Shown here one piece after another: positions 20,244 to 59,630 of a stretch of DNA of 64,000 bases. Position 1 is the stretch's first letter. Each line of letters begins with the position of its first letter. The stretch is from Candidatus Saccharimonadota bacterium (GTDB taxonomy: Bacteria; Patescibacteriota; Saccharimonadia; Saccharimonadales; UBA4665). The stretch is from positions 1-64,000 of the forward strand of contig DAHXLX010000001.1 in assembly GCA_027365775.1 (NCBI GenBank), given 5' to 3'. The notes beneath the pieces are model-generated. The model did no database searches, had not been told where the DNA came from, and saw nothing but the letters and a program-made list of their open reading frames with translations. Both the position numbers and the translations under genes were made by a program.

Positions 20244-20320
20244 GGCGGCGTAGCTCAGCCGGTTAGAGCACAGGACTCATAAGCCTGGGGTCAGTGGTTC
20301 AAGTCCACTCGCCGCTACCA
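20244..20320 (+). tRNA. tRNA-Met(CAT), elongator type
   Basis: GGCGGCGTAGCTCAGCCGGTTAGAGCACAGGACTCATAAGCCTGGGGTCAGTGGTTCAAGTCCACTCGCCGCTACCA; D arm, anticodon CAT (20278-20280), T arm, acceptor stem, encoded CCA. Confidence 0.93.
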
Positions 20321-40237: not shown

Positions 40238-40312
40238 TGGTTGCGGGGGCAGGACTCGAACCTGCGACCTCGTGGTTATGAGCCACGCGAGCTGCCGCTG
40301 CTCCACCCCGCG
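40238..40312 (-). tRNA. Initiator tRNA-fMet(CAT)
   Basis: CGCGGGGTGGAGCAGCGGCAGCTCGCGTGGCTCATAACCACGAGGTCGCAGGTTCGAGTCCTGCCCCCGCAACCA; C1-A72 mismatch and 5' CGCGGGGTGGAGCAG typical of bacterial initiators. Confidence 0.95.
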
Positions 40313-40901: not shown

Positions 40902-40977
40902 GGGGATGTAGCTCAGTGGTTAGAGCAGTCGGCTCATAACCGATTGGTCGCTGGTTCAAGTCCAGCCATCCCCACCA
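40902..40977 (+). tRNA. tRNA(CAT), best read as tRNA-Ile2 (lysidine-modified), alternatively Met
   Basis: GGGGATGTAGCTCAGTGGTTAGAGCAGTCGGCTCATAACCGATTGGTCGCTGGTTCAAGTCCAGCCATCCCCACCA; D arm, variable region and T arm match the known E. coli tRNA-Ile2 pattern. Confidence 0.85.
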
Positions 40978-55890: not shown

Positions 55891-56475
55891 GTGAAGCCAA
55901 AACTGCTTCCGTATATATTAGGCCTCAGCGTCTTGGGCATTCTTACACTTATCTTGCTGGTAATGGTGATTGTCAAGGCCGGCGATTATAAATACGACCA
56001 GAAGCTTTTCGATCAGGCCAATGCCATCGCCAGCAAAATCAACAACTATGTCGACAAGAACAGCTCTAGGCCAACCAACTTGCGCCAGGCAGGCGTCAGT
56101 AACGTACCGTCGGGTATCAGCTACGCCATATTGCCTAGCGGTAAATATCGGTTTTGCGTTGACTACCGGGGCAGTTACAGCAGTTTAACCGCTACGCTTG
56201 AGCAACAGCTTTTTAACGTTATCTATGGCCCAAGCCAAGGCAATGGCGGCACCGGCAATTATCCAACCAACAGTTACTTATTGATCATCAATCCTTATTA
56301 TCATAAAGGCGAGAATTGCCAGACGATCACTCCGATGGTCGTTACGCCTTTCGGCAGCAGCGGCAGCAACCCGTTTGACCAGTGCAACGCCGTACCCCCA
56401 AATGACAGCACGGCTTATAGCGCCTGCATCAGCCAGGTGAACAGCCAATTAAACAATCAAACCTCAGGCACTTAG
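55891..56475 (+). CDS. Single-TM pseudopilin-like exported protein
   Basis: TM then DQANAIASKINNYVDKNSSRPTNLRQAGVSN...YRFCVDYRGSY. Confidence 0.6.
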   Translation: MKPKLLPYILGLSVLGILTLILLVMVIVKAGDYKYDQKLFDQANAIASKINNYVDKNSSRPTNLRQAGVSNVPSGISYAILPSGKYRFCVDYRGSYSSLTATLEQQLFNVIYGPSQGNGGTGNYPTNSYLLIINPYYHKGENCQTITPMVVTPFGSSGSNPFDQCNAVPPNDSTAYSACISQVNSQLNNQTSGT

Positions 56476-57059
56476 ACCAGGGAAATGTATAACCAGTTAC
56501 GGTCGCTATAGCGTTGGACGCTGGCCAGGACACCTTCGGCGGGCCGGCGGCAACGCAATGCTTCACGGATTTTGGTAGACGATACGCTTGGCGCGTAGCT
56601 ATTGATAACTGTAACCGCTTTTGGCTTGGCTGGCAGATCCCCCAGTCGTTCAGGGACAGACTTCTCGTCGCCGGTCCTGACACCGACCACCAGTTCAGTG
56701 GATTGCAGCAACAGCTCGGCATGCGGCCAATCGCCAATGCGGTTTAACAAGTCCGATCCGACTAAAACTACCAGCGTCGAACCGGGAAACCGCTGTTTAA
56801 GCATCGGCAGGGTTCGTTCGGCTGAGTGGTTTATCTCATTGGTTTCCAGCAGGCTTAATTGGCTATGCGGCTTGATGGCCTGTTTAATCATCGCCACGCG
56901 ATGCGCGAAATGGGCAAGATCGGTCTTTTGCCGGCGGTAGCGTTCGGGCATCAGAAAAACCTGATCCAAATCGGCCGCCTTAATCGCCTGCAGCGCAAAA
57001 CTGATATGACCGGCATGGACCGGATTGAAGCTGCCGCTATAAATACCGATGCGTTTCAT
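56472..57059 (-). CDS. nadD: Nicotinate-nucleotide adenylyltransferase family
   Basis: IGIYSGSFNPVHAGHISFALQAI, SSTKIREALR. Confidence 0.88.
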   Translation of the reverse strand: MKRIGIYSGSFNPVHAGHISFALQAIKAADLDQVFLMPERYRRQKTDLAHFAHRVAMIKQAIKPHSQLSLLETNEINHSAERTLPMLKQRFPGSTLVVLVGSDLLNRIGDWPHAELLLQSTELVVGVRTGDEKSVPERLGDLPAKPKAVTVINSYAPSVSSTKIREALRCRRPAEGVLASVQRYSDRNWLYISLV

Positions 57060-57233
57060 TCAGGCCGGCGCTCCTTCGCAACATGAAGTCTGCATCTTGC
57101 ATACACTACAGACATAATGCCCATGCACCGGCTGCAACGGGAAAGCGCCACAATTGTCACAAATCAGATATACTGGGCACTGCTTTGGTGCCGGAGCACT
57201 CTCGGTTTTATCGCTCGGATCGCTATCTGCCAT
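57060..57233 (-). CDS. 57-aa zinc-ribbon-like small protein
   Basis: Manual translation MADSDPSDKTESAPAPKQCPVYLICDNCGAFPLQPVHGHYVCSVCKMQTSCCEGAPA* with CxxC pairs. Confidence 0.55.
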   Translation of the reverse strand: MADSDPSDKTESAPAPKQCPVYLICDNCGAFPLQPVHGHYVCSVCKMQTSCCEGAPA

Positions 57234-57352
57234 AGACATATTTTACTACCCCACCGCCCACCAAATCGAACTAGCAACCGATTTTTAATCCATCACCCTG
57301 TTTGGTTAAATAGCTGCTCTAGCATAAATTTAACGGCATGGACCGAGCCATA

Positions 57353-58576
57353 TTACAGCTCATAGGTTAGTGACTTGTGACACTTGGAACAGGTTATAAC
57401 TTTTTTGTTGGCGGCGTATGTAATTGTCCCGTCGGCGCCTTTTTGATGACAGATCGGACAGGTCACGCATTTCATAACGGTCGGACTAGATTCGTTACCG
57501 CCGAATATGGCAGACAGAACGTCATCACTATCAGCACCGAGTATCGCCTGCTCACCTTTGAGAATGGCTATTTCACCACCGCAACCGACGAGTACCCGGC
57601 CCTGTTTAACAAACTCGCTATACGCCCGGTTGACCTCTTGCCGCAACCATATGCGCCTAGCCATCACATCCATACGGGTAACGCCTAACCGGTCGACTGC
57701 CCGCCAGGATTGACCGCTTAGCCTTTTGGCAAACAACGCCCAGGTGCCGTAGATGTGTTGTTTGGTCGCCGCTGCCAGTTGGTCTTCGTCCAGCGATGAA
57801 CCGGCCAAGCTGATCAAGCCGTCGACCAAATAGCCGATTAGATCATCATGGTTAAGAACCTCTGTCCAGGCATTATCGTAGCCGGTTATGCCGCGGCGGC
57901 CGGCGTGGAAGCTGCCACCGTATTTAGCGTTCATAAACCGGTCATAGACATCAACCAGCTGGCTCATGTTCATTGCCGGGTCGCTTGATGCAGCGGTTAA
58001 AACAGCACTGAACGCGGTATCGTCGCTGTTATCGATAGTCTGGGATTCTAGCACGATCGATCCGTCGGCTAAACACTTTGCCTGATAAATAAAACCCAAT
58101 TTACGGTCCGGATTTAAGCCGCATTGTTTAATTAGCTCCTTACCGTATCGGGTTTCAACATCGTGCGGATACGGCGATACCCATGTCCGTTGCTCGCCCG
58201 GTTTAAGCCGTTTATTTTGCTCGTGCTGGTAATGGTCGTTGTCCGCCCGCTCAACCAGAAACTGCCGCCTTGGATCAATCGCGGCATCATAGACGGCCGC
58301 CGTCTTACCGGCATCAAGCATCTCCTGATAAGGGTGCCAACCGCCTTTGTAAAAGTACACCAGATCGTCTCCGCGGCGTTGAAAAACGAAGCTGGTCTTA
58401 GCCGATCGATCAATTCCCTCGGTTATATAGCTCAGGCCTTCGTTTAACACCTGCTCCCTGGTTTGGGGCAGTACGTAACCGGAATACTCCAGGTCATGCT
58501 TGATTGCGTTAACTCCGGCCAAAATGTCGAAACTTTGATATTTTTCCTGATGGTTTGGTTTTAACAGGGCTTCCAT
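57353..58576 (-). CDS. Uncharacterised 407-aa protein with C-terminal zinc ribbon
   Basis: C-terminus CPICHQKGADGTITYAANKKVITCSKCHKSL; preceded by riboswitch. Confidence 0.75.
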   Translation of the reverse strand: MEALLKPNHQEKYQSFDILAGVNAIKHDLEYSGYVLPQTREQVLNEGLSYITEGIDRSAKTSFVFQRRGDDLVYFYKGGWHPYQEMLDAGKTAAVYDAAIDPRRQFLVERADNDHYQHEQNKRLKPGEQRTWVSPYPHDVETRYGKELIKQCGLNPDRKLGFIYQAKCLADGSIVLESQTIDNSDDTAFSAVLTAASSDPAMNMSQLVDVYDRFMNAKYGGSFHAGRRGITGYDNAWTEVLNHDDLIGYLVDGLISLAGSSLDEDQLAAATKQHIYGTWALFAKRLSGQSWRAVDRLGVTRMDVMARRIWLRQEVNRAYSEFVKQGRVLVGCGGEIAILKGEQAILGADSDDVLSAIFGGNESSPTVMKCVTCPICHQKGADGTITYAANKKVITCSKCHKSLTYEL

Positions 58577-58583
58577 TAAAAAT

Positions 58584-58606
58584 CCCTTGCTTTAAACGAG
58601 CAAGGG
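58584..58606 (-). terminator. Regulatory terminator of riboswitch expression platform
   Basis: Minus strand CCCTTGCTCGTTTAAAGCAAGGG-ATTTTT, immediately before the ATG. Confidence 0.75.
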
Positions 58607-58639
58607 CTATATCTGCACATAATTGGCTCTTGCTCGAGA

Positions 58640-58775
58640 GACTGGTGTTGACTAATTTCCGTGTCTGGCTTACCAGTTAGTGGTTTACAGTTGCGGCACA
58701 GCTCAGGATTTACACCTGATTCCGGTAATAAATTGTTAACTTAATCCAGTGTAGCATTACCTATTAACGCTACAT
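58640..58775 (-). ncRNA. Cobalamin riboswitch (compact, class II-like)
   Basis: Minus strand TTACCGGAATCAGGTGTAAATCCTGAGCTGTGCCGCAACTGTAAACCACTAACTGGTAAGCCAGACAC: B12-box core GGAAxxxGGUGxAAAUCCxxxxCUGxxCCGCAACUGUAA and AGCCAGACAC box. Confidence 0.85.
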
Positions 58776-59129
58776 ATAGTATTTATTACCGCACAATGAA
58801 CACTAATACGACAAGCCAAAGACTGAAACTGCCTAAGTGGCAAAAGGTAAGGCCAGACAGACAATCACAATCGTGATCGCCGGTACGCTAAACAACTTTA
58901 ACAGCATTAGTGCACCGACCACGGCCAGAACCGGGTCGGTGACGGTTAAGGCCCAACCTAGCAACTAACCGGGTAAGATCCTGCCGCAACTTTGCCCGGC
59001 CGGCACGCCGGCGGATCGGATACTCAGGATCACCGCCAAAGCTTCCGCCATTACAGCTACCGGCAACAACGCTATCCTCGGGTTTTTTGTATTTAGAACA
59101 GCGTACGATTTGTGTTGGTTGCTGCCCAA

Positions 59130-59630
59130 TCAAACGTCCCTTAACTGTTTATACCGGGGCATGAAACTTTGACTTGCCCCCTCCAGTCCCAAAATCCTTA
59201 ACGCCTCGATTAATACCCGCAGGTTATCCAGTTCCGGCTCGCCGTATTGCGCCGACTTCTCAACTCCCCGGAAGGCATGCTCAACTTTTTCAACCAGCCA
59301 CCGTTCCTGGTCGGGCGTAATTTGATTGGTGGTGATTGATTGGATTTCCCCATCACCGACTACTTCAAGCGAACGGGCGGAATGGTCACGCTTGCGTAAG
59401 TGGCCCCGTTTTATCAGGCTGTTGACATGCAAGGCTACCGTGGCAACCGAAGTATAGCTAAGACCGCTCATGATCTCCCGGTAGCTCGGGCTGTAACCGT
59501 GCTTGGCGATGAAATCGCTGATATATTCCAGCAGCTCGCGTTGTTTCTTGGTCGGTCTGATGGTTTGATTTGTGTCTTTGTTTGTCTGGTTCATCGTCTT
59601 GCCGTTAGTGGTTGTTGTCGATGGCTTCAA
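59130..59630 (-). CDS. LexA-type wHTH regulator without S24 protease domain
   Basis: TKKQRELLEYISDFIAKHGYSPSYREIMSGLSYTSVATVALHVNSLIKRGHLRKRDHSARSLEV; C-terminus unrelated to S24. Confidence 0.75.
   Translation of the reverse strand: MKPSTTTTNGKTMNQTNKDTNQTIRPTKKQRELLEYISDFIAKHGYSPSYREIMSGLSYTSVATVALHVNSLIKRGHLRKRDHSARSLEVVGDGEIQSITTNQITPDQERWLVEKVEHAFRGVEKSAQYGEPELDNLRVLIEALRILGLEGASQSFMPRYKQLRDV

Follow-up and report, generated by a model that had tools for sequence, protein, structure and literature searches.

A cobalamin riboswitch precedes ZnR, a zinc-ribbon protein family of one Saccharibacteria order that may serve cobalamin handling

The 407-aa protein encoded behind a cobalamin riboswitch in the window, the 64,000-nucleotide stretch of Candidatus Saccharimonadota bacterium DNA analysed here, belongs to a new riboswitch-controlled zinc-ribbon family, which we named ZnR. 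It is ZnR that is the new element, the riboswitch itself being of the ordinary cobalamin type. We give about an even chance to the proposal that a repressing riboswitch turns on ZnR at low cobalamin and that the soluble protein aids cobalamin acquisition or handling for the class II ribonucleotide reductase NrdJ. The observations below, from the aptamer, the kissing-loop complementarity and the alternative helices to the protein family, its co-occurrence and its operons, were made computationally.

Results

A cobalamin riboswitch with a group-specific L5-L13 pair

The leader of the 407-aa gene had been read from the sequence alone as a B12 aptamer, and the covariance model bears this out: cmscan matched Rfam family RF00174 above its gathering threshold (Table 1; E-value 3.7e-5 for the window and 9.9e-8 for the genome), an assignment that rests on the reporting of the best family per clan (CL00101). 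The sequences quoted in that sequence-only reading sit exactly where it placed them on the minus strand, all coordinates being exact, and the long P6 arm, for want of which the leader had been likened to compact class II forms, is absent as claimed, P6 having shrunk to a 4-bp hairpin. The match is the sole one to a cobalamin riboswitch in the scanned source genome (715 kb in 20 contigs, 70% complete), and RF00174 matches were present in 68 of the 93 genomes of the window's family.

Comparison of 107 riboswitch loci from the window's family and other families of the class revealed that L5 reads UGCCG in 106 of them, in contrast to the usual UCCCG (PMC10653944), and that a four-pair P13 hairpin with the loop CG-N(1-2)-GCA is kept in 94, only the extra base N differing. 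The P13 stems (CTCT/AGAG, CTCC/GGAG, CTTC/GAAG and TTCC/GGAA) vary in a compensatory fashion, and the closing pair is exchanged between C-G and U-A, with six rows of each in alignment A5. UGCCG is exactly complementary to CG..GCA once N bulges out, and the two loops therefore correspond to the L5-L13 kissing loop of cobalamin riboswitches, here coupled to the expression platform, the evidence being complementarity of loops kept in 94/107 loci; bulged kissing loops have been described in other cases (PMC10653944). The recognition of the CGAGCA hairpin as P13/L13, with a matching L5, goes beyond the sequence-only reading. An L13 that lacks a partner in L5 and pairs with the terminator only was also considered: a search for contiguous pairing was blank, and a bulge-tolerant search showed the L5-L13 match.

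The aptamer core, the above-gathering score and the kissing-loop architecture ally the window leader with RF00174, from which it differs in the UGCCG of L5, the bulged L13 that matches it and the very short P6. It is a real cobalamin riboswitch of the ordinary kind with a group-specific L5/L13 pair, and its ligand is presumably cobalamin. Another B12 riboswitch preceding a gene of uncertain function is that of M. tuberculosis ppe2 (PMC11260477), although gene and organism are unrelated to ZnR and the window. Just past the ZnR start codon, a number of loci (L012, L016, L075, L098, L141, L144 and others), whose members have AEQ-type N-termini, carry another hairpin with a CGAGCA-like loop; it may be a codon coincidence or a switch component.

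A predicted repressing expression platform

The terminator that had been proposed just ahead of the ATG corresponds to a stem at 58606-58584, followed by ATTTTTA and the ATG at 58576. By itself this hairpin is not above chance (1 found against 0.7 expected in shuffles), and the support for it is comparative. The proposed antiterminator pairs CGAGCAAG at 58636-58629(-) with CTTGCTCG at 58604-58597(-), the latter within the terminator 5' arm, and the predicted leader fold indeed joins them exactly over 8 bp. The pairing stands, both in this fold and in its enrichment among relatives; the notion of an independent upstream strand does not, as CGAGCAAG consists of L13 and the 3' side of P13. Across 86 loci, Watson-Crick pairing of the 8-nt segment with the downstream platform reached at least 6 bp in 18 (1.9 expected) and at least 7 bp in 13 (0.3 expected). 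Given the 6-bp count, the antiterminator is real without being universal; a universal form was unsupported, the pairing being strong in a subset of loci only. The alternative leader folds are near-equal in predicted energy, with -16.6 kcal/mol for the antiterminator and -15.9 kcal/mol for P13 plus terminator, a gap of 0.7 kcal/mol.

Pairing between the P13 3' side and the terminator 5' arm excludes P13 plus terminator, as in repressing transcriptional switches of the metE type. In the P. megaterium metE corrinoid riboswitch, for which the repressing model was established by mutation (PMC10653944), the 3' side of P13 likewise serves as antiterminator for the terminator 5' arm, and P13 is stabilised by L5-L13. 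The window departs from it in that L13 itself lies within the antiterminator strand, a Shine-Dalgarno sequence lies in the terminator 3' arm, and the controlled gene, in place of metE, encodes an unknown protein. The repressing platform of the leader is complete, and the sequence-only reading had recognised part of it; among the elements that it passed over is the Shine-Dalgarno sequence. As AAGGG is part of the 3' arm, 7 nt ahead of the ATG, an effect of the hairpin on transcription, translation or both is conceivable.

By analogy with P. megaterium metE, B12 would turn the ZnR gene off. When B12 is bound, L5 (UGCCG) would kiss L13 (CG-A-GCA) and P13 would be locked, so that the downstream hairpin would form, transcription would stop in the T run and the Shine-Dalgarno sequence would be buried. 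When B12 is absent, the strand of L13 and the P13 3' side would pair with the 5' arm of the hairpin, and ZnR would be expressed.

Table 1 Features of the riboswitch-ZnR locus in the window
Feature	Position	Strand	Basis or remark
LexA-like gene, upstream	59130..59594	-	PF01726, 52 bits; same neighbour in L160, L161 and L163
Cobalamin riboswitch aptamer (RF00174), short P6	58644..58758	-	cmscan 34.8 bits, gathering threshold 31.5
L5 loop UGCCG, pairs with L13	58694..58698	-	Conserved among loci; paired in 12/12 rows of alignment A5
P13 hairpin CTCT-CGAGCA-AGAG	58627..58640	-	L13 at 58636-58631; hairpin and loop type conserved among loci
Antiterminator 5' strand (CGAGCAAG), overlaps L13/P13	58629..58636	-	Predicted pairing with 58604-58597; pairing enriched against shuffles
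Antiterminator 3' strand (CTTGCTCG), overlaps terminator 5' arm	58597..58604	-	Predicted pairing; enrichment against shuffles
Terminator-like hairpin, 8-bp stem	58584..58606	-	Sequence; hairpin search
Shine-Dalgarno AAGGG in terminator 3' arm	58588-58584	-	Sequence; 7 nt before ATG
T run past hairpin	58578..58582	-	Sequence
ZnR, 407 aa, riboswitch-controlled zinc-ribbon family	57353..58576	-	ORF; Glu53, Cys332; zinc ribbon C373, C376, C396, C399; AlphaFold pLDDT 88.5, pTM 0.78
59-aa cysteine-rich ORF (CDNC...CSVC...CCEG) between ZnR and nadD-like gene	57060..57239	-	Sequence; possibly co-transcribed
nadD-like gene, begins directly where small ORF ends	56472..57059	-	PF01467; TIGR00482 103.5 bits, below cut-off 112.45

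ZnR is a candidate new fold confined to one order

In most family loci, the first gene past the riboswitch encodes a protein of about 370-570 aa. An iterative ZnR profile gathered 97 ORFs at 96 of the 107 riboswitch loci and left out the 103 further ORFs of these loci, nadD, nrdA and DUF6580 among them; the E-values of later iterations are circular, new members having passed the threshold before inclusion in each round. In alignment A3 of 92 members, Glu53 is found in 88/88 and Cys332 in 91/91 aligned rows, and the C-terminus carries a CxxC...CxxC zinc ribbon. The window protein shares all of these features, matches the profile and is preceded by the riboswitch. Identity to it spans 9-49% across the family, and ZnR is a fast-evolving family of the window's order, within which alone it was found in a phylum survey; candidate members beyond the order were discarded as zinc-ribbon matches only, at E ~1e-3. 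Hydropathy exceeded a simple membrane-segment threshold in only 2 of 92 members, both at the extreme N-terminus, where the choice of start codon is in doubt, and ZnR is predicted to be soluble, with no clear transmembrane segment.

No family-level relatives were found in Pfam, NCBIfam, PHROG, PADLOC or PDB sequences, and the weak local matches obtained in the Pfam, NCBIfam, PHROG and PDB comparisons fell mostly on the zinc ribbon. No sequence match tied ZnR to known families of B12 transport, B12 enzymes or adenosyltransferases, in agreement with the earlier remark that the 407-aa protein resembles no known B12 transporter or enzyme. AlphaFold gave confident models of the window protein (Table 1) and of a second member (pLDDT 91.3, pTM 0.85); neither had a Foldseek match in the PDB at E <= 1e-3, nor did the first model match viral protein models. 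By comparison with the PDB, ZnR is thus a candidate new fold, and since neither model matches a solved fold, no activity can be transferred to it. Hints of LuxR- or longin-like folds were set aside (TM-scores <=0.33, poor superposition, not recurring in the second model), as were a viral or plasmid origin, for which there were no matches, and a defence function, for which PADLOC gave none. Among 88 complete ZnR proteins, 17 have AA as their last residues, against a background of 1.1%, and six of the 17 have LAA; these ends (L070, L079, L083, L097, L123, L145 and others) resemble the ssrA degradation tag, and the window protein does not have one.

ZnR co-occurs with NrdJ and the riboswitch

ZnR and the riboswitch were searched independently in 295 genomes of the class. 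ZnR occurred in 87, of which 66 had a scored riboswitch. Inspection of 13 ZnR loci that had none (L161-L173) showed the core motif CCGCAAC[GT]GT upstream in 11, with only the P13 hairpin in L166 and neither core nor hairpin in L173, suggesting that the coupling of riboswitch and ZnR is closer than the strict scan implies. Class II NrdJ exceeded the cut-off in 117 of the 295 genomes, two borderline NrdA-like matches being left out, and was found in 81 of the 87 genomes with ZnR versus 36 of the 208 others (Fisher p 3e-36, shared ancestry ignored). In family f2, NrdJ is present in 13 of 14 ZnR genomes, though absent from most genomes of the family; the exception, G247, has an NrdA-like reductase and a ZnR locus (L173) devoid of the riboswitch core.

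NrdJ requires AdoCbl. A BtuR/CobA-type adenosyltransferase is encoded in 56 of 59 genomes of the window's family and the PduO type (PF01923) in none of the 59, and on account of BtuR these organisms look able to supply NrdJ with AdoCbl made from imported cobalamin. A check of the source genome for B12 enzymes and transporters returned none of NrdJ, BtuR, DUF6580 and the B12-binding domain PF02310, while relatives carry NrdJ and BtuR. Since almost every genome of the genus encodes NrdJ, the absence of NrdJ, BtuR and DUF6580 from this 70% complete assembly is probably due to incompleteness.

ZnR alternates with a probable B12 uptake pair

The window carries the order lexA-riboswitch-ZnR-nadD, and both neighbours recur in relatives, the LexA-like gene marking a conserved locus and nadD adjoining ZnR in many families of the order. 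The 59-aa ORF has no NCBIfam match; visual inspection showed similar cysteine-rich small ORFs in L097 and L102. Elsewhere in the window, all three of its tRNA genes, at 20244-20317(+), 40241-40312(-) and 40902-40974(+), apparently bear a CAU anticodon, as judged from alignments.

Several relatives carry, past the riboswitch, genes for a DUF4430 protein and a DUF6580 membrane protein, as in G028, which reads lexA-riboswitch core-DUF4430-DUF6580-nadD. ZnR is the third gene of a riboswitch-DUF4430-DUF6580-ZnR operon in G008 (L009), G029 (L097), G030 (L091) and G065 (L076), and G275 (L157) shows the order ZnR-DUF4430-DUF6580-nadD. DUF4430 and/or DUF6580 also lie beside nrdJ and btuR in L154, L155, L156, L158 and L159. 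DUF4430 is the type of C-terminal domain found in transcobalamins (PMC4350170). The operons with ZnR and the nrdJ/btuR neighbourhoods support DUF4430-DUF6580 as a probable B12 uptake pair serving NrdJ.

Among the 117 NrdJ genomes, 76 have ZnR only, 16 DUF6580 only, 5 both and 20 neither, an alternation with Fisher p 2.6e-6, or 5e-4 within the window's family, shared ancestry being ignored in both. ZnR and DUF4430-DUF6580 mostly replace each other and sometimes share an operon. The two have in common the riboswitch type, the lexA-nadD locus and at times a single operon; however, DUF4430 and DUF6580 (PF14478, PF20221) are secreted-type and membrane proteins, whereas ZnR is predicted to be soluble and is unrelated in sequence. 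In the stretch that separates riboswitch and ZnR in G012 (L029, oriented 1612-1854), an ORF of 80 aa resembles a DUF4430 start joined to a DUF6580 end, probably a scar left by deletion of the uptake genes.

Class I nrdAB genes are a classic kind of target for cobalamin riboswitches. The riboswitch precedes nrdAB in G024 and G079 of the window's family and in G305, each of which retains ZnR with its own riboswitch. Like ZnR, these genes stand under a cobalamin riboswitch in genomes of this group that also encode NrdJ, but they encode a known B12-independent isozyme of ribonucleotide reductase, and ZnR resembles no isozyme.

Discussion

The riboswitch, its terminator and antiterminator, a protein unlike known B12 transporters or enzymes and the setting in a reduced genome all survive from the sequence-only reading, with the correction that the antiterminator strand is part of P13/L13. 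Co-occurrence with NrdJ, operons with DUF4430-DUF6580 and riboswitch-controlled nrdAB in relatives strengthen the link between ZnR and B12. It is hardly credible that the leader is vestigial or a chance match and the downstream protein unrelated to B12: 34.8 bits barely exceeds the gathering score and the terminator by itself stays at chance level, but aptamer, L5, L13 and P13 are conserved across 107 loci of many families, in constant coupling with ZnR. A function for ZnR in the AdoCbl pathway, as corrinoid adenosyltransferase or as a different enzyme, is in our view very unlikely. NrdJ needs AdoCbl and the PduO type is missing from 59/59 genomes, yet the presence of BtuR in 56 of them means that the step is already covered, ruling out ZnR as the missing adenosyltransferase, and there is no fold similarity to any solved adenosyltransferase. 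Saccharibacteria are epibiotic, and a fast-evolving host-interaction factor made at B12 scarcity, for example for obtaining B12 from the actinobacterial host, would suit this lifestyle as well as the order-restricted distribution of ZnR and its wide sequence divergence, with members 9-49% identical to the window protein. However, almost all members have no clear transmembrane segment and no evident signal sequence, and Glu53, Cys332 and the zinc ribbon are strictly conserved, as suits a preserved activity inside the cell. We consider such a factor a decidedly improbable explanation.

The main rival is a B12-sparing role, in which ZnR would replace or protect a B12-dependent function at low B12, such as dNTP supply while NrdJ is idle. 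The control of B12-independent nrdAB by the same riboswitch type in three genomes and the predicted solubility of ZnR are in keeping with it, and the ssrA-like LAA/AA ends of some members (17/88 AA versus 1.1%) could remove the protein once synthesis stops. Where nrdAB is so controlled, however, ZnR persists with its own riboswitch, and the genes with which ZnR alternates are uptake-like, not isozyme-like; we regard sparing as unlikely, albeit the strongest competitor. What favours a role in cobalamin acquisition or handling is the way ZnR is regulated, that it co-occurs with NrdJ and that it alternates with the probable uptake pair, beside which, and in most lineages instead of which, ZnR would act. 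Against this role count the want of a clear transmembrane segment in a protein proposed to replace a membrane uptake pair, the lack of a match to known B12-binding families, the 20 NrdJ genomes with neither ZnR nor DUF6580, the source genome without NrdJ, BtuR or DUF6580, and a platform whose terminator alone is at chance level and whose antiterminator is clear in part of the loci.

Any B12-related activity of ZnR is something that we infer, and in its likeliest concrete form ZnR would, at a guess, bind cobalamin as a trap, chaperone or recycling protein by means of Cys332 and Glu53. The fuller proposal, that ZnR is a fold unrepresented in the PDB and restricted to one Saccharibacteria order, which acquires, traps or recycles cobalamin for NrdJ and has replaced DUF4430-DUF6580 in most lineages, we place somewhat short of even.

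A literature search, with most subscription journals outside its reach, returned no paper joining Saccharibacteria with a cobalamin riboswitch, none that links ribonucleotide reductase and either vitamin B12 or cobalamin to Saccharibacteria or Patescibacteria, and no mention of DUF6580; the papers searched held no description of B12 acquisition or management by host-dependent Patescibacteria. A 2024 review (PMC11665869) noted that inducible expression for Patescibacteria is yet to be developed and that riboswitches are promising candidates; the window riboswitch is a predicted native ligand-responsive switch of a Patescibacteria group. The present analysis outlines a small B12 economy of BtuR, NrdJ, DUF4430-DUF6580, ZnR and nrdAB, several parts of which stand under one riboswitch type, and singles out one protein family, ZnR, as a test candidate for B12 management in host-dependent Patescibacteria.
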